From positions 1,878,453 to 1,942,452 of the forward strand of contig NC_015577.1 of the NCBI RefSeq assembly GCF_000214355.1: DNA of 64,000 bases, written 5' to 3'. The position numbers were made by a program, and so were the translations under genes. The notes below the pieces were generated by a model. The model was not told where the DNA came from, did no database searches, and saw nothing but the letters and a program-made list of their open reading frames with translations. The stretch is from Leadbettera azotonutricia ZAS-9. GTDB lineage: Bacteria > Spirochaetota > Spirochaetia > Treponematales > Breznakiellaceae. Shown here piece by piece: positions 687 through 10,379 of this stretch. The first letter of the stretch is position 1. Each line of letters starts with the position of its first letter.

Positions 687-866
687 CTATGTGGCGGCCT
701 CCTTGGCGCGGTCAAGCATAACGTCTATTGCGTACTGCGCTTCACTGTTTATCATTTCCGGCTCTCCTCCTTCCCGTTTCTGCGCCGGGGTCTGGGTAAA
801 GCCCCGGATTATCCTGGTCGGTTTACCAGATTTCCGGCTCTTCTCTTTCAGTTTCCTTGCCCCCAT
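687..866 (-). CDS. Unknown small basic protein of the integrative element
   Basis: A frame of about 59 residues (from MGARKLKEKSRKSG) overlaps the 3' end of the helicase gene by 44 bases and ends at 687. A second in-frame ATG at 755 has a much better ribosome site (GGAGGAGAG) and would give a 22-residue peptide ending DRAKEAAT. The same strand carries an open frame just downstream (about 599-682, ending KTAHVKPL), so the two may once have been a single gene now frameshifted. Function unknown. Confidence 0.35.
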   Translation of the reverse strand: MGARKLKEKSRKSGKPTRIIRGFTQTPAQKREGGEPEMINSEAQYAIDVMLDRAKEAAT

Positions 867-2424
867 AAGGACTGTTTTCCGTTTCTGTTGCCGTGGTTTC
901 GGACACCAAGACACAAGAATTGTTAAAATCCGTATTAGTTTCTATAATTTTCTCCCGCGAGAGAATTAACTCGAAATTTAGGTTTTCTTGTGTCTCTGTG
1001 TTTTCTCGTACAAATACACGAGTTGACTTGCCATCAATTTTTCTAAACTTTGTAAAAATTCCGCGCTTTTCAAGCTCATTTGTAAAGGTTTTTGACTTCA
1101 TCGGGGTTCTAATGCCCTGTTGCATCAGACAATAGCGTTCAAATTTTGCGTAAAATTCTGATTTTGGCTCATAGTTAGTTACGGTGAAGGCATCGCTATC
1201 CTCCAGGAACTGCTTTATAAGGTCTTGTTCGTCAAAATACTCCAATGTTGCGGCATCGATTGCCTTACAATCCGGCATTTTGCGTCCATTGGCATAGTAT
1301 TTCACTGCGTACTGCATAAACAGATTGAGGATTTTCCCATATTCCGGTATAAATGAATCCTCTAACCCCTCGTTTTTGGTTTCAAATTGAGCATTAAAAG
1401 GTACCAGGCGAAAACGCTTTTTTTCGCTTTTGCCAAAGCTGTCAATGGGAATTTTGTCATTTGAGGCGATAAAAACTTTGCATTTTAATGAGCAACTATA
1501 GCCATCCCTCCCTTTTTTCTCGACCCATACCCCGTCGCCATCCCCGGCAATAGACTTCAATTCATCAAGGTTTAACTTGCCATGATCGGGCTTCAAGTCA
1601 TATAAAATGGCCGCCCTTTTTCCCGGAAGCCCCGCCTTATCGAACCGCGACTGACTGCCGGGTTCCTTGATAACCAAACTGCGGGGAAGTGTTGTAGCAT
1701 AATCTCCTATAATTTTTTGAAGGGTTCGCAGTAACGTTCCTTTTCCATTGCTACCTTGCCCATAGAAATTGGTGATGCGGTCGGTGTAATGTCCGAATAA
1801 TGAGGTTCCGCAAGCGGTAAGCAGCCAGCCCATTAATTCCTGATTTCCACAGGCTGCCCATTTCAGGAACTTCATAAATTCTTCCGGTTCCCCTGTCTCG
1901 GGCTTAACCGCTGCGCTCATTGTGAAATGATCCTCGGGTGTTGACGGCCTCATGCTTCCATCGGTAGACACGGCTACCCCGGCGCAGTTTATAAGCGCAT
2001 TGTCTGCATCAAAATCCATCGGCAGGGCTGTAATTTCCGGCTCATGGGTCATGGCTTCAATAACTGATTTTTTACGGGGCTGGTTGCGAAAAACACGATA
2101 CTCACGATAAGCTCTGTCCTGATCTGCCGGGGCAACACGGGTAATCTGTTCAAATAGCAGTGTTTCATACTCCCTCAGCACCTGGTATAAAACCGCTTCT
2201 GCATAATCAATTTGGAAAGCCCCCGTGCTGCCATTGTGTACCAGCCACCCATGTGCTGTTGTATGCCTCAATAATCCTTTGGTGCCAGCGGCTATCCACC
2301 GGCTTATGCCACCATCGGAATACAGATCAAGGCTAATTTGTTCTCCAATCACAAACACGTTAGGCACTGCATTCTTCCGTGCCAGGACAATAAGGGGTTT
2401 GGCAAGTGCTCTTACAGCGTCCAT
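823..2424 (-). CDS. P4/D5-type SF3 helicase-primase C-terminal protein
   Basis: A 533-residue replicative helicase of the phage/plasmid P4-D5 group, which unwinds DNA at the element's own origin. The Walker A motif GQGSNGKGT lies at residues 222-230, the Walker B segment AAILYDLKP near 271-279, and the SF3 sensor-like stretch FIASNDKIPI near 318-327, in the order and spacing expected. The N-terminal 200 residues match the D5_N region by position rather than by an obvious motif. The start at 2424 overlaps the end of the CHC2 primase gene by 13 bases. Together the two genes form a split primase-helicase pair, suggesting autonomous replication of the excised element. Confidence 0.88.
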   Translation of the reverse strand: MDAVRALAKPLIVLARKNAVPNVFVIGEQISLDLYSDGGISRWIAAGTKGLLRHTTAHGWLVHNGSTGAFQIDYAEAVLYQVLREYETLLFEQITRVAPADQDRAYREYRVFRNQPRKKSVIEAMTHEPEITALPMDFDADNALINCAGVAVSTDGSMRPSTPEDHFTMSAAVKPETGEPEEFMKFLKWAACGNQELMGWLLTACGTSLFGHYTDRITNFYGQGSNGKGTLLRTLQKIIGDYATTLPRSLVIKEPGSQSRFDKAGLPGKRAAILYDLKPDHGKLNLDELKSIAGDGDGVWVEKKGRDGYSCSLKCKVFIASNDKIPIDSFGKSEKKRFRLVPFNAQFETKNEGLEDSFIPEYGKILNLFMQYAVKYYANGRKMPDCKAIDAATLEYFDEQDLIKQFLEDSDAFTVTNYEPKSEFYAKFERYCLMQQGIRTPMKSKTFTNELEKRGIFTKFRKIDGKSTRVFVRENTETQENLNFELILSREKIIETNTDFNNSCVLVSETTATETENSPYGGKETEREEPEIW

Positions 2425-3056
2425 GCTTCCCTCTGTATACCGCTTGCCGCGAGCCTATCGGCCATTGTCCGACGCGGTTTTGCTTCTTTTGGCGCCTCTG
2501 GCTCAGGCAACATGAATAGGGCTAGCAACATTTCCGCCCGTAAGCGCGCCCGGCTCATGTCTCCGCTATCCAGAGCATCGGCAAATTCCCGCAGGAGTGA
2601 ATCGCGGTAGACCGTGGATTGCGAAAGCCTGATTACCGGACGTTTCCCTTTTGGGGGTTTCCAATCGGTAACAATGCCCAGGGTGTTTTCGATGTCTTTG
2701 ACTATTTGCGGAAAGTGATCCTTGTCGCAGGGTATTTTGGCTAATGCGGCTGATACAGCGAAAATGTCCCCTGATTCATGGCATGTGAAGCAATAAGCAT
2801 ATTCGGGATTGACCTTGCATGAAGGGTTATGCTCATCATGCCATAGACAAATAATTAAGCCCTGTTCATTTGGGTGTATACCTTTGGCGTCCAGGTATTC
2901 GGCAAGTCGGCTCTTGAGGAATTTTATATCGCTCTTGCCAAGTGCAGTGTTTTGCTGTAAATTATCTGTAGCGGATTTTTCAAGGTTCCCGCCTTGCGCA
3001 TTTTTCGCCTCAGCCCCGGCCCCCATGCCGGGGTGTTTTATTACCTCGGTATTCAT
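2412..3056 (-). CDS. CHC2 zinc-finger primase-like protein
   Basis: A 214-residue protein with a DnaG-type CHC2 zinc-binding fold: C70-x2-H73 followed by C89-x2-C92 (CLWH and CFTC). No TOPRIM catalytic domain is present, so it is the template-recognition part only, as in many mobile elements where the catalytic and helicase parts are on other proteins. The start at 3056 is preferred over the ATG at 3071 because it follows GGAAGG at proper spacing and forms an ATGA overlap with the methyltransferase stop. It is likely co-translated with the D5-type helicase downstream. Confidence 0.8.
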   Translation of the reverse strand: MNTEVIKHPGMGAGAEAKNAQGGNLEKSATDNLQQNTALGKSDIKFLKSRLAEYLDAKGIHPNEQGLIICLWHDEHNPSCKVNPEYAYCFTCHESGDIFAVSAALAKIPCDKDHFPQIVKDIENTLGIVTDWKPPKGKRPVIRLSQSTVYRDSLLREFADALDSGDMSRARLRAEMLLALFMLPEPEAPKEAKPRRTMADRLAASGIQREAWTL

Positions 3057-3769
3057 AAATAGACCTTCCACCCAAAAGATTTATATGCGTCAAGAAATTT
3101 CTCCGAGTTAGGCCCTGCGTACAAAACCGCTTGTCCCTGGAGGGGGGATCCCATCTTCCCGTCGGGGCCATTGAACTTAACCCGGCTCGCGGGAAACACG
3201 ATCGCGTTCGAGAACGAAACAAGGGCACCGAACCAGGCGGTTTCCGTGGCGTTGTTCACCAGGACGATGGCTTCGGTTACTTCCCCCCTACAGACATGGG
3301 TTTTAAGCTTTTCGATGAATTTTCCGATCAGCTCCCTAGCATACGGGGGGTTGAGCCATACCCGGCCTTCCCATGGATGCCCCAGGCCGTCGTCGTCGAT
3401 GGTGTGTATTTTTTTGGCCTTGACGGTTCTGTTCGCGGCCTCGCAGCTTGCGGGATCGAGATCGATTCCCCCCATGGCCTTTCGCGCCGCCTCGATGTAC
3501 TCCGCAGGGGTATACCATTCGTTGTTGCCGCTGTTATGGGCCACATGGGGCTTGGGGCTTTCAATTCGAACCTGCTCATTTTTGAGCGGGAGGGATAGGA
3601 GGTAATTAATCATGACCCGCGGCCTTGATTTTGCATTCCCCAAAACGGGGGAATAGCTTTTCCCCCCTCTCAAAACTGTATTTTTCAATGCGATCCTTGA
3701 TCCCGGCGAGCCGACATGCTCCTGTTCTGCAATGCCGTCCCGCCCGGCAGCGTTTTTGTCTGCACTCAT
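3053..3769 (-). CDS. Phage-type DNA N6-adenine methyltransferase
   Basis: A protein of up to 238 residues of the phage Dam family (DNA N-6-adenine-methyltransferase). Recognisable are NNEWYTP near residue 82, DLDPAS near 103 and the catalytic NPPY at 140-143, which binds the flipped adenine. The ATG at 3769 forms an ATGA overlap with the stop of the HTH gene, but the first 52 residues are not typical of the family and an internal ATG (residue 53) is an alternative start. Such enzymes modify element DNA against host restriction or mark it for replication; which is true here cannot be told. No restriction partner is visible. Confidence 0.85.
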   Translation of the reverse strand: MSADKNAAGRDGIAEQEHVGSPGSRIALKNTVLRGGKSYSPVLGNAKSRPRVMINYLLSLPLKNEQVRIESPKPHVAHNSGNNEWYTPAEYIEAARKAMGGIDLDPASCEAANRTVKAKKIHTIDDDGLGHPWEGRVWLNPPYARELIGKFIEKLKTHVCRGEVTEAIVLVNNATETAWFGALVSFSNAIVFPASRVKFNGPDGKMGSPLQGQAVLYAGPNSEKFLDAYKSFGWKVYL

Positions 3770-4002
3770 ACTACGCCCCTTGTAAGCTGCGTATCCATGC
3801 CGTTCCTGATTTCATAATCTGCGGACTGGCGTCCACGGAATATGAATGTTTCCAGATCTGCCTGAGTGAAAAATACCTTACCACCCGTAGGCTTATAGCA
3901 TGGTATTTTCCCCAAGTGGATCAGCTTATAGAGGTATGACTTTTTAAGTCCCGTAAATTGTGCCGCACCATCAACATCGAGTGGCTTTTGAACTGCTTCC
4001 AT
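3766..4002 (-). CDS. AlpA/excisionase-type helix-turn-helix protein
   Basis: A 78-residue protein with a MerR/AlpA-like winged helix: VDGAAQFTGLKKSYLYKLIH is the helix-turn-helix and KVFFTQADLETFI the wing and following helix, close to excisionase and AlpA proteins that recode integrase action or activate element genes. It has a good ribosome site (AAGGAAAG) before ATG 4002. It is the first gene of the rightmost run of coupled genes after the iteron-like repeats at 4066-4110, which lie in its upstream region and are its most likely binding site. Confidence 0.75.
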   Translation of the reverse strand: MEAVQKPLDVDGAAQFTGLKKSYLYKLIHLGKIPCYKPTGGKVFFTQADLETFIFRGRQSADYEIRNGMDTQLTRGVV

Positions 4003-4065
4003 ATTCTTTCCTTTGCCAAGTTTTGCTTGGCATGGAAAGAATGAACTTTATTTTTATTTGTTAAT

Positions 4066-4110
4066 CATACCGTAGAGTATGTTTTCGGTATGTTTTCGGT
4101 ATGTTTTTAA
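4066..4110. repeat. Iteron-like 11-bp repeats beside a palindrome
   Basis: Three head-to-tail copies of TATGTTTTCGG at 4078-4088, 4089-4099 and 4100-4110 (last copy ending TTAA) directly follow and overlap the palindrome CATAC-N6-GTATG at 4066-4081. They occupy the only gene-free gap between the HTH gene and the unknown 222-residue gene. Such a layout fits a regulator-binding site or a replication iteron. Confidence 0.7.
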
Positions 4111-4112
4111 AA

Positions 4113-4781
4113 TTAATCGAAAAGTTGCTTTCTTAAGTTATCCCATTTTGAAATATCCTTTCCCTCATTGGCAGTTTTCAGGGTATTTGTTTCGGATATG
4201 CGGCCCTTAATTTTTATATATTGAACTATTGTCTCCCATTCAGTAAAACCACCCTCTTTAAAAAACAGCCCTACAAGACCCGCCTTTATCTTAAAATTAA
4301 AATACGAGCCATCAAATTCTATGATTTTTACACAAATCGCTTTTTTTAGTGCATTATATGTCCGAAGGCTTTCCGTTTTTAACCGTGCTATTAAATAATG
4401 GTTTTCCATATCTGAGTCTTTTGGTACTTCACCCTTGCTCCCTTCACCGGTTTCAGTATCAAGGTGGGATAGGTCAAGGTTGTCCAGCTCTTCAATTAAG
4501 CCATTAAAAAAATCTATTTGGGTTGGATAAAAAAATATTCCGAATCCTTTTATTTCAAATACAGGAGTTTTAGGAATTTCATCATCATACCTTTTTTGAT
4601 ACGCATCTCTTTCGAGAATAAGGACTTTTTTGACTGATTCTCTTTTCTCCCTGCCTAACATTACATCTTTGTATACAAGATTTTTGAATTCTTCTCTTTC
4701 ATCATGGAATTTTTTATCGACTGGATTGCTAAGATCAAATGTTATTTTGCCTTTTCCATTATTGGGATATGATATTTTCAT
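4113..4781 (-). CDS. Unknown protein coupled to the integrase
   Basis: A 222-residue protein I cannot assign. It is rich in Lys, Glu and Asp, has no membrane segment or signal peptide, and near its C-terminus contains a stretch (FTEWETIVQYI, then SETNTLK) that reminds me of C-terminal parts of proteins carried with CTnDOT-like integrases, without being diagnostic. Its ATG at 4781 overlaps the integrase stop in an ATGA arrangement, so it is translated with the integrase and could be a recombination accessory factor. The coding sequence is clearly richer in A and T than the integrase. Confidence 0.6.
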   Translation of the reverse strand: MKISYPNNGKGKITFDLSNPVDKKFHDEREEFKNLVYKDVMLGREKRESVKKVLILERDAYQKRYDDEIPKTPVFEIKGFGIFFYPTQIDFFNGLIEELDNLDLSHLDTETGEGSKGEVPKDSDMENHYLIARLKTESLRTYNALKKAICVKIIEFDGSYFNFKIKAGLVGLFFKEGGFTEWETIVQYIKIKGRISETNTLKTANEGKDISKWDNLRKQLFD

Positions 4782-5902
4782 TGTGCCGTCCCCTTATCCT
4801 CATTTTTTGGAAACGCCAGTTCCTTCTTGCCCTCTATGCCGACCGCCAGCTTGATTTCCGGCATTTTATCAATGCCTGTCCGCTTTTCCTTATCTGATAC
4901 CTGGGTATAAATCGCCGTGGTTGCTATTTTCCCATGACCGAGTATTTTCTGTATCGTGTAGATGTCCACGCCCAGGCTGTGAAGAATAGTGGCGCACGAT
5001 CTCCGCGCCGTATGCCAGCCGATGTTTTTTTGGATACCGGCCTTTGCGGCCCATTGCTTCAAATACCTGTTTGTTTCGGTGCTGCTTCCTGCCAGTAGGG
5101 GAAAGAGAGGTTCCCCCTTATTGTGAAGCTTGCCGTCATTTATGATACCCCATGCCGAAGCGTGAAGGGGTATAAAAACACGCTTTTTTGTCTTTACCTG
5201 CTTTTTTGCCAGCCGGGCGCCGTCAGTGTCATGCTCAATGTCTCCCCATATAAGGGTTTTGATGTCGGATATTCTCAAGCCGCAGTAACAAGCGAAAATG
5301 AAGCCTTTCTGCACTTCGGCCCCCAGTTTTCCGCCTATGGGAACCCCTGCCATTTTTTTCAGTTCCCCAAGGGTCAATGTAACCATGTCAGGCTCCGGTA
5401 TGCTGATTGCCTTTATTCCTTCAGCAGGATCGGCAGTCAGGATATTCTCGCGGACGGCTTGCCCCAGCGCCATACGAACCCCAAGGACATAGGAATTCGC
5501 CGATTGTTCGCCCAGGCCGCTTTCCTTGAGCATCCAGTCTTGAAAGTTATTGAACCATTTTGAATTCACCTGCCCCAATTGTATTAAATCGCCGCCAGGG
5601 TATTTTTTAAGATAGGGCAGGCACTTGCAAACCCTGTCTTTTCTCGCATCCCTGCCTTTGGCCATTTCTTCGATGTACCGGTAAAGGGACTTTTTCGCGC
5701 TCAGGGTGTCCTGCAAGTTCCAGCTGCCGTCAAAGAGCTGCTGCTCCCTTCTTGCCCTGGCGTATTCAGCCCGGCGCATATTCTCTTTGTTCATAGCCGG
5801 ATCTTTGGATACGGAGAGGTGGAGGGCTTCAGCATGGCGCTGCCCCTTATCGTAAATATCAAGGTATAGCTTGCCCCTGATTTCCCGAATTTTTACTCCC
5901 AT
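4778..5902 (-). CDS. Tyrosine-type integrase of the tRNA-Arg element
   Basis: A 374-residue tyrosine recombinase that catalyses site-specific integration and excision. The SAM-like core-binding domain covers about residues 70-160 and the catalytic domain 175-345, with R210 (CGLR), H297 and R300 (HTARR), H323 (LGHG) and the nucleophile Y332 (IYTQ). The full catalytic set is present, so it should be active. It is of the phage_int_SAM_5/CTnDOT-like branch by its overall look. It lies 177 bp from the 3' end of tRNA-Arg, the expected position for an integrase that uses the tRNA as attachment site. Confidence 0.93.
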   Translation of the reverse strand: MGVKIREIRGKLYLDIYDKGQRHAEALHLSVSKDPAMNKENMRRAEYARARREQQLFDGSWNLQDTLSAKKSLYRYIEEMAKGRDARKDRVCKCLPYLKKYPGGDLIQLGQVNSKWFNNFQDWMLKESGLGEQSANSYVLGVRMALGQAVRENILTADPAEGIKAISIPEPDMVTLTLGELKKMAGVPIGGKLGAEVQKGFIFACYCGLRISDIKTLIWGDIEHDTDGARLAKKQVKTKKRVFIPLHASAWGIINDGKLHNKGEPLFPLLAGSSTETNRYLKQWAAKAGIQKNIGWHTARRSCATILHSLGVDIYTIQKILGHGKIATTAIYTQVSDKEKRTGIDKMPEIKLAVGIEGKKELAFPKNEDKGTAQ

Positions 5903-6077: not shown

Positions 6078-6078
6078 A

Positions 6079-6152
6079 TGAGAGATACCTGACTCGAACA
6101 GGCCACCTACAGCTCCGGAGGCTGTCGCTCTATCCAGATGAGCTAATCTCTC
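6079..6152 (-). tRNA. tRNA-Arg (anticodon CCG)
   Basis: A 74-base cloverleaf can be drawn by hand: acceptor stem GAGAGAT/ATCTCTC (7 bp), D stem GCTC/GAGC, anticodon stem ACAGC/GCTGT with loop CTCCGGA giving anticodon CCG (reads CGG codons for arginine), variable loop AGGTG, T stem GCCTG/CAGGT with loop TTCGAGT, discriminator A. The 3' CCA is not encoded. The 3' end faces the integrase at 4778-5902, so it is the probable attB/attR of the integrative element. Confidence 0.95.
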
Positions 6153-6184
6153 AGAAATAACTGCCGGGTATTAACCGATTAATT

Positions 6185-6281: not shown

Positions 6282-8807
6282 GTGCAGGCAATCAAGCGGT
6301 TCACAGAACAGGCAATTAATAAACTCAGGGAAGAAATCCAGGATACAGGGGGGAATGAGGTCTTTGCCCTGGGGTACATGGACGATGCCAACAAAATTGC
6401 AAAAATAGAAATCGCGGCCCGGGGCAATGTCAATTCTGTGCTGGCGCTTCAGGACAGGCTGGACGATATTTTTGATGACCCTGAGGCTGAAAGCGCTTCC
6501 CCTGACGTACTCATCCACAACCACCCCTCGGGGTTTTTGACCCCCAGCGACCCGGATATGAACATAGCCTCCAGGGCTGCCCAGGGCGGGGTGGGCTCCT
6601 TCATCGTGGACAACATGGTTACCAGTGTTTATGTTGTGGCAGAGCCTGCAAAACGCAGGAAAAGCCAGAAGCTCGATCCTGAAGCAATTACAGCAGCCCT
6701 GGAAGAAGGGGGCGCCATTGCCCGAAGGCTTCCGGTTTTTGAGACCCGGAAATCCCAGCTTGACCTTATGCATCTGGCGATTAAAGCCTTCAATGATGAT
6801 TCCATTGCGGCAGCAGAAGCAGGCACAGGGGTAGGGAAGTCCTTTGCCTACCTGCTCCCTGCCTTGAGTTATGCCATGGCGAATGACGAGCGTATTGTGA
6901 TTTCCACTGCCACCATAACCCTCCAGCAGCAACTTTACGAAAAGGACATACCCCTGGTGGCAGCCGGACTTAACAGCAAGCTCAAGGTGGTGCTGGTGAA
7001 GGGCAGGGGGAACTACCTTTGCCTTAGGCGTATGGAGGAGGTTCTAAAAGAGCCTTCCCTTGATGAAGAAGAAAATGAAAACCTCCGCTCCATAGTGCTT
7101 TGGGCGGAGACAAGCAAAACAGGGGATCGGGCGGATCTTTCATTTATGCCCATGGAAGGGCTATGGTCCCGCATTTGCTCAGAGGCGGATTCCTGCATGG
7201 GCATGCGATGCCCTTTCAGGGAACGCTGTTTTATGCTTGCCATGAGAAGGGAGGCAGCGGATGCCCGCATACTCGTGGTGAACCATCATCTTCTTTTTGC
7301 CGATTTGGCGGCCCGCATGGAAGGCGCCGGATATGACAGCACCGTGGTGCTTCCGCCTTATAATAGGGTTATCATTGACGAAGCCCATACCATAGAAGAG
7401 GCAGCCACTTCCTTTTTTTCAGACGAATTTTCCCGGTTTGGCATATACCGTAATTTAAGCCGCCTCTACCGCAAACGCAGGGCTCAAAAAACCGGCCTCA
7501 TCCTAAAGCTCATGGGCATGCTGCCTGGCAATGCAGCTTTTGCAGAGGATGATAAAAATAAAATTGAGGATATCATCGAAAACATCAGGCAGGCAGTTGA
7601 TGATCTTGATGAAGGGGCTGTCGAGTTGTGCGGCAGGGAAGGCGTCTTCAGGCTTGCCCCTCAAAAAGATGATTATATACGCACCGGGCTTTCGCCCCAA
7701 TTTATTTCTTTGCGCAAGCAGATAAATATACTGGGGGGCATCATCAGGGACATGCTCGAAAAAATTCCGGAAGCTGAAAATAAAAAAATCGATACTGCAC
7801 AAGAAGGCACAGTGTGGGAAGTGAAAGCTATACTGCGCCGTCTGGATACTATTGGGAATGTCTGTTCATCCTTTCTGGAATACAAAGAAAATCCCGGCAA
7901 GGTCATGTGGATAGAAAAACGCCAGGGTTCAAGCGATAAGCATTCCAAAGACCCCTGGGCTGAATTCACCGTGAGTCCCCTGGATGTTGCGCCCGTTTTA
8001 AAAGAAGCCCTCTTTGCTCCCAACAAAACTGTGATCTGCGTTTCAGCCACCCTTACCATAGGGGGCAGGGGCGAAGCGTCCTTTAGTTACTGGAAAAACC
8101 GTTCGGGCCTTGCGCTGGTACAGGACAGGGAAATATTGAGCGGCATATTCCCATCACCCTTTCCCTATAAATCAAAAGTTTTGCTGGCAGTGCCTTCTGA
8201 CGCGCCTCTGCCCACCGAAGGCGGCTTCAGCGCCTTTGTGGATAATGCAGCAGCTGATCTGGCGGAAAGCGCCGGCGGCTCAGCCCTCATACTTTTCACC
8301 TCATATACAGCCTTGCGAAGCGCCTATGAATTGGCAAAACCCAGGCTTCAGCAGGCGGGCATCCGGGTCCTTAAACAGGGAGACGACGACCGTTCCCGCC
8401 TGCTTGCAAATTTCCTCTCCGACGAAAGCTCTGTCCTTTTTGCCACCGATTCCTTCTGGGAGGGCGTAGACGCCCCGGGCGATACCCTGCGCCTCGTCAT
8501 CCTGTGCAGGCTCCCCTTCAGAACCCCCAGCGACCCTGTCTTCGAAGCCCGCTGCGAACACCTTGAAGCAGAGGGCGGCAACGCATTCATGGATCTCTCC
8601 CTCCCCGAAGCGGTGATGAAATTCAAACAGGGCTTCGGCCGCCTCATGCGCCGTTCCAGCGATCATGGAGTCGTGGCAGTCCTTGACGGCAGGCTCCTCA
8701 AAAAACGCTACGGGCAGACATTTCTCAATTCATTGCCCGAGACCAGGACATGCTTTGGTGATTTTAAGGCCATATCGAGGGCCACAGAAGAATTCCTGTT
8801 TCCGTGA
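6282..8807 (+). CDS. JAMM domain fused to a DinG/XPD-type helicase
   Basis: An 841-residue protein. Residues about 20-115 form a RadC/JAB-like JAMM metalloprotease fold with the full metal set E26, H79-N-H81 (HNHPSG) and S89-D90. From about 165 a superfamily 2 helicase of the DinG/XPD type follows: Walker A AGTGVGKS, DEAH box IIDEAH, and four cysteines between them (NYLC, RIC, DSC-x4-C-x4-C region) fitting the 4Fe-4S cluster of XPD helicases; the late motif FGRLMRR carries the arginine finger. DinG unwinds 5'-tailed DNA, R-loops and G4 structures. In Firmicutes the same N-terminal place is taken by a DnaQ exonuclease. The start is GTG 6282 with a weak ribosome site. It stands alone, convergent with the next gene. 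Confidence 0.88.
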   Translation: MQAIKRFTEQAINKLREEIQDTGGNEVFALGYMDDANKIAKIEIAARGNVNSVLALQDRLDDIFDDPEAESASPDVLIHNHPSGFLTPSDPDMNIASRAAQGGVGSFIVDNMVTSVYVVAEPAKRRKSQKLDPEAITAALEEGGAIARRLPVFETRKSQLDLMHLAIKAFNDDSIAAAEAGTGVGKSFAYLLPALSYAMANDERIVISTATITLQQQLYEKDIPLVAAGLNSKLKVVLVKGRGNYLCLRRMEEVLKEPSLDEEENENLRSIVLWAETSKTGDRADLSFMPMEGLWSRICSEADSCMGMRCPFRERCFMLAMRREAADARILVVNHHLLFADLAARMEGAGYDSTVVLPPYNRVIIDEAHTIEEAATSFFSDEFSRFGIYRNLSRLYRKRRAQKTGLILKLMGMLPGNAAFAEDDKNKIEDIIENIRQAVDDLDEGAVELCGREGVFRLAPQKDDYIRTGLSPQFISLRKQINILGGIIRDMLEKIPEAENKKIDTAQEGTVWEVKAILRRLDTIGNVCSSFLEYKENPGKVMWIEKRQGSSDKHSKDPWAEFTVSPLDVAPVLKEALFAPNKTVICVSATLTIGGRGEASFSYWKNRSGLALVQDREILSGIFPSPFPYKSKVLLAVPSDAPLPTEGGFSAFVDNAAADLAESAGGSALILFTSYTALRSAYELAKPRLQQAGIRVLKQGDDDRSRLLANFLSDESSVLFATDSFWEGVDAPGDTLRLVILCRLPFRTPSDPVFEARCEHLEAEGGNAFMDLSLPEAVMKFKQGFGRLMRRSSDHGVVAVLDGRLLKKRYGQTFLNSLPETRTCFGDFKAISRATEEFLFP

Positions 8808-8846: not shown

Positions 8847-10379
8847 TTATTCATGCGAATCAAACACTATCTTCCCCAAGTCCGAAGCTTCAGGGTTAAC
8901 ACCGGCGCGGTATTTTTCCAGTGCGATTTTTTCCCGCTCCAAATCGGGGAAGGAGTAGACTTCCCCATCCTGGGCAATGGTTACTTCGGGGATAGCATAG
9001 GCGCCCATCTCTTTGAGGGCCTTGTCCTGGGCTTGCTTTAAGTTATTGGGGCTTGCTTCCCTTTGGCCAGGATTAAGGTCCTGGGGTTTTACTGCTTTGG
9101 GGAAAGACCAGATGCGGCTAAAAGAGAATTTCCGGAAATTTTCGAATTTGATTTTTTCATTTTCTTTTTTGAGCTTCCATTTCCTAAGGGCGGGGATGAG
9201 CCAAAAGAGGATTGAGAAGGCCAGGGGGATGAGCCCCAGGCCCACTGCGATTATGGGCAGGGGATTGGCTGCAACAGCAGAAACAAAATAATAGGTCATG
9301 CCGTAAATCAAGGGGGCTGCCTCTCCGGTCTGCTGGGATAAAAGGTGGACATTCTCCCCAATTTGCCGGGCTATGATTGTGCCGCTGTGGACACTCTGAT
9401 ACAGGAAATAACTTCCAAAGAGGAGGTTCACTCCGTTGATAAGACTGAACCAGAAATTCATCTTTCCTTTGTTGGAAGAAAAATCGCGAAGGTTTTTGGG
9501 GAGGCTGGGGATGCCGGAACTGCCCGCATTATTCCGCCCTTTGCCCTCGGTGCGTAATAAAATTTCATCAAAGCGGTAAACCACTGTCCCGTCTTCTGTG
9601 GCTTCAGGGCTGCCGCCGAATTCGGCGCAAAGGGCAGTGATTTCAGATTCAGCCCTGTCAGAGGGGATGCCTGAGATGGCCATGAGCTCGGGCAGGGAGA
9701 CTACGCCGCGATGCTCCTGGACATACGCAATAAAGGTCTTTTTCTCCTCCGTTGGCCACTGGGCATTGGGGTCGCCGTCGCCAAAGACAAAAGAAAAAAT
9801 TGCCTTGTGGAGGGGCCTCCCCTTGGGGCGGCTATTATTTTCAAAGCCCCCGTAACGGCCGTATCGGGGATTCACGGACTTGGTAAGCTCAGAATAAAAC
9901 CAAAGCCTTATAATGAGGTTGAAGATGCTTGAGCCAAGGTACATGCCCCCGTGGCCTGAACGGCTGTCATTGTTGTTCCGGGAATTGGCGGCCATGGACA
10001 AAAAGAGGCTTGCCAGGGCTATGGCCAAAAAAACCAGAAAATACCCTATGAGCATGACCATTATCCAAACCTTGAAGATCCCTGTGCCCGCGAGGCCAAG
10101 AAAATGGATGAGTTTTTCAGACGTCTTTTTAAGGAAAGGCGCCAGGCCCTTGAAGCGGCTGGCAAAGCCCCTGGGGAAGGAATAGAGGATTTCACCCGAT
10201 TCGGTTACTTCGAGGCGTCCCGAGAATTCGTCGGCCGCAACAGGGACCAGCTCTTTGACCGTATAAAGGGGGAGGGCAGTGACTGCAGCTATATCGGCGA
10301 CGGTTGCGCCCTTCCTTTTGCCCTTGAAGGCTTCAACTATCTTTTTATATGCCTTTCCGTCTGCGATTTTGCCTCTCAT
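8847..10379 (-). CDS. Membrane protein with three wHTH-like repeats, coupled to Rrf2 regulator
   Basis: A 510-residue protein of no function known to me. Three related segments, about residues 18-72, 228-288 and 450-490, each end in a pattern like V-(T/A)-x-(S/D)-G-E-(I/V)-x-YSFP or YRF, and the first two begin with a helical VADIAAVTALPLYTV / VSLPELMAISGIPSD unit, which reads like a small winged helix. Between them lie hydrophobic segments near 95-130, 150-165, 318-342 and 362-420, so it is an inner-membrane protein with soluble repeats. Its ATG overlaps the stop of the Rrf2 gene (ATGA), so the two are co-translated. It may sense or relay a signal with the regulator; this is inference. Confidence 0.7.
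   Translation of the reverse strand: MRGKIADGKAYKKIVEAFKGKRKGATVADIAAVTALPLYTVKELVPVAADEFSGRLEVTESGEILYSFPRGFASRFKGLAPFLKKTSEKLIHFLGLAGTGIFKVWIMVMLIGYFLVFLAIALASLFLSMAANSRNNNDSRSGHGGMYLGSSIFNLIIRLWFYSELTKSVNPRYGRYGGFENNSRPKGRPLHKAIFSFVFGDGDPNAQWPTEEKKTFIAYVQEHRGVVSLPELMAISGIPSDRAESEITALCAEFGGSPEATEDGTVVYRFDEILLRTEGKGRNNAGSSGIPSLPKNLRDFSSNKGKMNFWFSLINGVNLLFGSYFLYQSVHSGTIIARQIGENVHLLSQQTGEAAPLIYGMTYYFVSAVAANPLPIIAVGLGLIPLAFSILFWLIPALRKWKLKKENEKIKFENFRKFSFSRIWSFPKAVKPQDLNPGQREASPNNLKQAQDKALKEMGAYAIPEVTIAQDGEVYSFPDLEREKIALEKYRAGVNPEASDLGKIVFDSHE

Follow-up and report, generated by a model that had tools for sequence, protein, structure and literature searches.

Following up a gene in a 64,000-nucleotide stretch of Leadbettera azotonutricia ZAS-9 DNA (the window), we found that spirochaetes deal with the front domain of a DinG-type helicase in one of two ways. 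Judging by the sequences, this N-terminal JAB/JAMM domain is kept with its active-site residues unchanged or is deleted outright, the latter many times, and it is this pattern that is new here. As the site is either unchanged or removed together with its domain, catalysis is suggested as what is kept, and the intact-or-gone pattern points to a putative role of the JAB as an accessory catalytic domain. With modest confidence we favour the reading that the protein is a FeS helicase of the XPD/DinG family with an accessory metallohydrolase of the RadC/JAMM clade that would act on the strand exposed by the helicase. The protein is a member of the RadC-like DinG subgroup, which has been described but is unstudied, and its architecture is not new.

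Domain organization and predicted fold

The layout of the 841-aa protein is given in Table 1. The preliminary description of this gene had claimed a JAMM-type domain fused to a DinG-type helicase, and this was borne out by the open reading frame, by the Pfam matches at both ends and by the AlphaFold2 fold. It had also recommended a domain search of the N-terminus and a survey of spirochaetes. When the N-terminus was scanned alone, PF04002 (Pfam RadC) covered residues 9-102 with an E-value of 1.4e-12 and 48 bits; in the full protein the domain scored 43.7 bits, above the gathering cut-off of 22.1 bits. The whole-protein RadC models stayed far under their cut-offs (NF000642, 37.5/180 bits; TIGR00608, 33.6/133.85 bits).

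Table 1. Positions in the window of the RadC-like DinG gene and its parts.
Feature	Position	Strand	Evidence
RadC-like DinG gene, 841 aa, GTG start codon at the first position, stop codon ending at the last	6282..8807	+	ORF; Pfam/NCBIfam domains; full-length AlphaFold2 model
RadC-type JAB/JAMM domain, N-terminal, residues 1-120; E26, H79, H81, S89, D92	6282..6641	+	PF04002, conservation, structure
JAMM core motif H79-N-H81-PSGFLTP-S89-DP-D92 (metal Asp = D92)	6516..6557	+	Numbering, conservation
Linker between JAB and helicase, about residues 121-154, poorly conserved	6642..6743	+	Column entropy
Helicase motor domain 1: Walker A GTGVGKS (181-187), FeS part, DEAH (366-369)	6744..7388	+	
FeS region, four cysteines C247, C305, C310, C316	7020..7229	+	Alignments
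Helicase_C_2, residues 659-820; motif VI QGFGR 783-787	8256..8741	+	PF13307 1e-45

Residues from about 130 to 841 form a complete FeS DinG/YoaA helicase, which scored best against YoaA/DinG models and has all the helicase motifs, namely the four FeS cysteines, Walker A, DEAH and motif VI. The cysteines C247, C305, C310 and C316 were invariant in 36 aligned spirochaete proteins and were kept in 78, 81, 84 and 84, respectively, of the 84 proteins in a wider fusion alignment. YoaA gave the best NCBIfam score (539.3 bits, below the NF053712 equivalog cut-off of 680), and the DinG equivalog cut-offs were not reached either (PRK08074, 480.9/789 bits; PRK11747, 377.7/598 bits; TIGR01407, 363.9/547.7 bits). 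Unlike the present protein, YoaA and E. coli DinG are without a JAB domain, and YoaA pairs with HolC (PF04364), for which no match was found in the window genome while the E. coli control was positive. Only one PF13307 match was found in this genome, which therefore has a single DinG-type helicase; a separate stand-alone RadC is encoded elsewhere in it (C1:2633933).

AlphaFold2 gave a full-length model with a mean pLDDT of 88.8 and a pTM of 0.83 (alignment of 36 spirochaete sequences), and residues 1-131 alone reached a pLDDT of 91.9 and a pTM of 0.86 (60 sequences). The latter model has the JAMM fold that had been expected of residues 1-120. Its structural matches, as listed, were filled by JAMM/MPN proteins, among them CsRpn11 (6fnn; Z 10.6, rmsd 3.5 over 117 residues), PfJAMM1 (5ld9; Z 10.4), Citrobacter BubCD (Z 10.4) and AfJAMM (1oi0; Z 9.0). 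RadC 2qlc was absent from the best 50 matches listed, which is uninformative since these were filled with proteasome and signalosome entries. By sequence profile against solved structures, the only significant relative was RadC 2qlc (7.6e-09), and AfJAMM stayed at noise level (0.16-0.18). Together, these results indicate a domain that is JAMM by fold and RadC by clade. In the structure comparison, the helicase part matched E. coli DinG (6fws; Z 38.8), S. aureus DinG and CasDinG.

Relation to described DinG and RadC proteins

Cheng 2025 (PMC11981726) defined RadC-like DinG as one of ten DinG subgroups and modelled the Desulfuromonas soudanensis protein, pointing out that four residues are conserved and might bind Zn, and stating that there is no experimental work on this subgroup. 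The earlier statement that other DinG proteins carry an exonuclease or nothing at the N-terminus was thus incomplete, as a RadC-like domain had already been described there. Our protein shares with the subgroup the N-terminal RadC-like domain with E, H, H and D, the YoaA-like helicase with MD1, MD2, Arch and a FeS domain with four Cys, and a genome without HolC; it differs in being spirochaetal, and no architectural difference was found. We found no paper in the literature that treats spirochaete RadC-like DinG proteins; spirochaetes are not mentioned in the main text of Cheng 2025, and its Table S1 may list them. ExoDinG (S. aureus DinG, 8zef/9ii8) belongs to the same helicase family (Z 36.3 over 626 residues) and likewise has its N-terminal slot occupied by an accessory enzyme, but this is a DnaQ-like 3'-5' exonuclease where the present protein has the JAB. 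On the basis of RadC-DinG/RAD3 fusions, Aravind's group had earlier proposed that JABs of the RadC clade act as nucleases or otherwise process nucleic acids (PMC5512222; also PMC3482391), arguing that RadC JABs are unlikely to have a ubiquitin-tail groove and that they occupy nuclease positions in domain architectures (PMC5512222).

The metal site

The JAB motif of the protein comprises E26 and, further on, HNHPSGFLTPSDPD, including H79, H81, S89 and D92. E26, H79, H81 and D90 had been named as the metal set in the preliminary description, of which the first three stood and the aspartate did not. The published JAMM motif is E-Xn-H-S/T-H-X7-S-X2-D (PMC300881), and this H-x-H-x7-S-x2-D spacing places the serine at 89 and the metal aspartate at 92. 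Conservation agreed with the spacing: E26, G48, H79, N80, H81, P82, S89 and D92 were invariant in the 84 aligned fusions (D92 in 84/84) and in 60/60 of the domain alignment. As the H-x-H-P motif was used in part to collect the 84 fusions, invariance in that set is inflated for H79, H81, P82, S89 and D92, but not for E26, G48 and N80. Position 90, by contrast, was D in only 34 of the 84 fusions and E, G, S, N, A or others in the remainder. The metal residues are thus conserved in homologues, though many Treponema relatives have lost the whole domain.

Compared with the JAMM/MPN+ peptidase motif, the metal and catalytic positions were all present, but N rather than S/T stands between the histidines. 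With stand-alone RadC (PF04002/TIGR00608) the domain shares the JAB clade and the HNHPSG...PS..D signature, and 2qlc is its best solved sequence relative. The JAMM isopeptidases (AfJAMM, PfJAMM1, Rpn11) have the same fold and E-H-H-S-D set, but they carry H-S/T-H in place of HNH and their sequence similarity to the domain is at noise level.

Apart from one genome (G191), the JAB site was intact in the fusions. The fusion in that genome (L066; G191:C3:209500-215500) has a degenerate JAB in which HNHPSG has become VHRSRA, and it was the only dead copy seen. Two distant fusions (L067 and L079) have an insertion between HNHP and S-x-x-D, which is unusual, the spacing of the site being otherwise fixed.

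Distribution and repeated loss of the JAB domain

In the recommended survey, about 120 of the 296 Spirochaetota genomes that were sampled contained the fusion (match table). A scan of species genomes found it elsewhere in Desulfuromonadales/Geobacter relatives, Gemmatimonadota, Planctomycetota, Sumerlaeota, KSB1, Bacillota and others. Fusion JABs and the stand-alone spirochaete RadCs fell on opposite sides of one branch (SH-aLRT 100), so that the fusion JABs form a separate clade, and JAB identity tracked helicase identity across protein pairs (r=0.69). These two results together indicate that JAB and helicase evolved together.

Two relatives from the same family were found to have helicase-only frames. 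In a tree built from the helicases of 69 proteins, from Treponematales and outgroups, JAB-less proteins were nested within the fusion clade, and JAB presence changed 11 times by parsimony, at least seven of these changes being forced by supported branches, with the ambiguous L249 (genome G342) scored as JAB-less and with trees that were quick searches supported by SH-aLRT only. When the 22 genomes in which the N-terminal match was weak were searched specifically, 21 of them showed a match that begins at residue 116-133, in frames of about 660-790 aa, and a helicase frame with no adjoining JAB. No JAB remnant was found near the helicase in L063, L064, L169, L170 and L177 with tblastn. Assembly breaks were therefore rejected as the origin of the JAB-less frames, with G342 as the exception. 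Replacement of the lost JAB by a stand-alone RadC was also considered, and as stand-alone RadC occurs both with and without the fusion, there is no simple replacement. The tree and the searches indicate that Treponematales deleted the JAB module repeatedly while the helicase stayed. Because many lineages retain the helicase but not the JAB, the JAB would be an add-on and not part of the motor.

In L249 (G342:C57:7226-8267) the JAB lies in its own short frame, adjoining and slightly overlapping the helicase frame, and this two-frame layout is either a true gene split or an assembly frameshift.

The fusion gene is chromosomal. A mobile-element origin was rejected, as no full-length fusion occurred in viral contigs, phage or plasmid records: matches in viral contigs mainly covered the region around Walker A, the phage matches listed covered the helicase only, and the best match in the plasmid collection was a chromosome-like 2.1-Mb Fusobacterium record covering residues 64-824. 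Clustering of the ORFs around 71 fusion loci (flanks up to 5 kb) gave no conserved neighbour common across phyla; the large clusters consisted of the gene itself, of antisense frames or of synteny confined to single clades. The E-values from the loci scan are to be read against its candidates. In difference to the JAMM isopeptidases, no ubiquitin-like partner gene was seen adjoining the fusion at these 71 loci.

Possible function of the JAB domain

In the favoured reading the helicase, presumably of 5'-to-3' polarity, would expose a strand, and the JAB would hydrolyse a bond in or on it. Zn2+ would be held by H79, H81 and D92, E26 would activate water and S89 would polarise the substrate, and the JAB would thereby widen the range of what the helicase can resolve. 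The more definite statement, that the JAB is a catalytically active metallohydrolase of the RadC clade and has a definite task, as a nuclease or an adduct-removing enzyme, on the DNA that the helicase exposes, falls a little short of an even chance in our judgement. By analogy and from the features of the site, a nucleic-acid or nucleotide-adduct bond seems somewhat more likely as the target than a peptide bond, because the HNH is as in RadC, a ubiquitin-like partner is missing, the N-terminal slot is common with the ExoDinG exonucleases and the groove argument (PMC5512222) applies. A peptide or adduct target is also kept in consideration, since the solved structures closest to the domain speak for it, as does a peptidase-like site that is complete. 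The preliminary description had put forward, as possible functions, the processing of a protein or adduct on DNA or R-loops, for example a protein-DNA crosslink, and a nuclease-like use of the JAMM fold.

Taken further, the peptide target leads to a peptidase or isopeptidase that trims stuck proteins or modifiers, such as a DNA-protein crosslink or an R-loop-bound protein, while the helicase travels on DNA, likened in kind to SPRTN-type repair. JAMM peptidases are not general proteases but cut the exposed tails of particular partners, which counts against such a function, as does the finding of neither a ubiquitin-like partner nor a conserved neighbour in about 70 loci. The nearest solved structures among the matches listed were the zinc isopeptidases CsRpn11, PfJAMM1, Rpn11 and CSN5, the peptidase metal set is complete and S89 is present, and the DALI search with the RadC-like domain in PMC11981726 gave metalloproteases and no similarity to nucleases. 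Yet the HNH is of the RadC type and not H-S/T-H, and a groove that could receive a ubiquitin tail is improbable in RadC JABs (PMC5512222). On balance we consider a peptidase unlikely.

A JAB that is a non-catalytic binding or regulatory module for docking DNA or protein, like the pseudo-exonuclease of pExoDinG, with a metal that merely stabilises the fold, appears quite unlikely to us. Such a module would agree with the many deletions in which the helicase was retained and with the single degenerate copy (L066 in G191); the N-terminal slot of pExoDinG shows that a non-catalytic occupant is possible, and to our knowledge no activity has been shown for RadC itself. However, E26 is invariant, and by homology it hydrogen-bonds the catalytic water and is not a zinc ligand (PMC300881). 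S89 is invariant as well, and a purely structural zinc site would not need both; moreover, degenerate copies are rare in comparison to clean losses. That the fusion is an artefact, two neighbouring genes joined by error in gene calling or assembly, is hardly credible: the JAB of G342, with its separate short frame directly ahead of the helicase, would fit this explanation, but the frame is uninterrupted here, in the about 120 Spirochaetota genomes and in other phyla, and this conservation of a single open frame refutes it.

If the JAB is a working metallohydrolase on a helicase, RadC-like DinG would be the first place to read out the biochemistry of the RadC domain, with the JAB-less orthologues as natural controls. 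RadC is widespread in bacteria, and the combination of a helicase of a well-studied type, a strict site signature and many natural deletions within one order would make a practical system for the function of RadC-type JABs.

Neighbourhood of the gene in the window

A 510-aa protein with hydrophobic segments and no Pfam match is encoded next to the DinG gene at 8847-10379 (-). On the other side a tRNA-Arg(CCG) is located at 6078-6153 (-), and a 20-base probe revealed no second copy of its 3' end. Genes spanning 823-5902 (-) lie at the 3' side of this tRNA: 4778-5902 encodes a tyrosine recombinase, 3053-3769 a DNA methyltransferase of the Dam type and 2412-3071 a DnaG-type zinc ribbon protein, while the ORF at 823-2424 resembles a phage/plasmid primase-helicase. 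Based on these genes and their position at the tRNA, 823-5902 looks like an integrated phage-like element that ends just upstream of the DinG gene.
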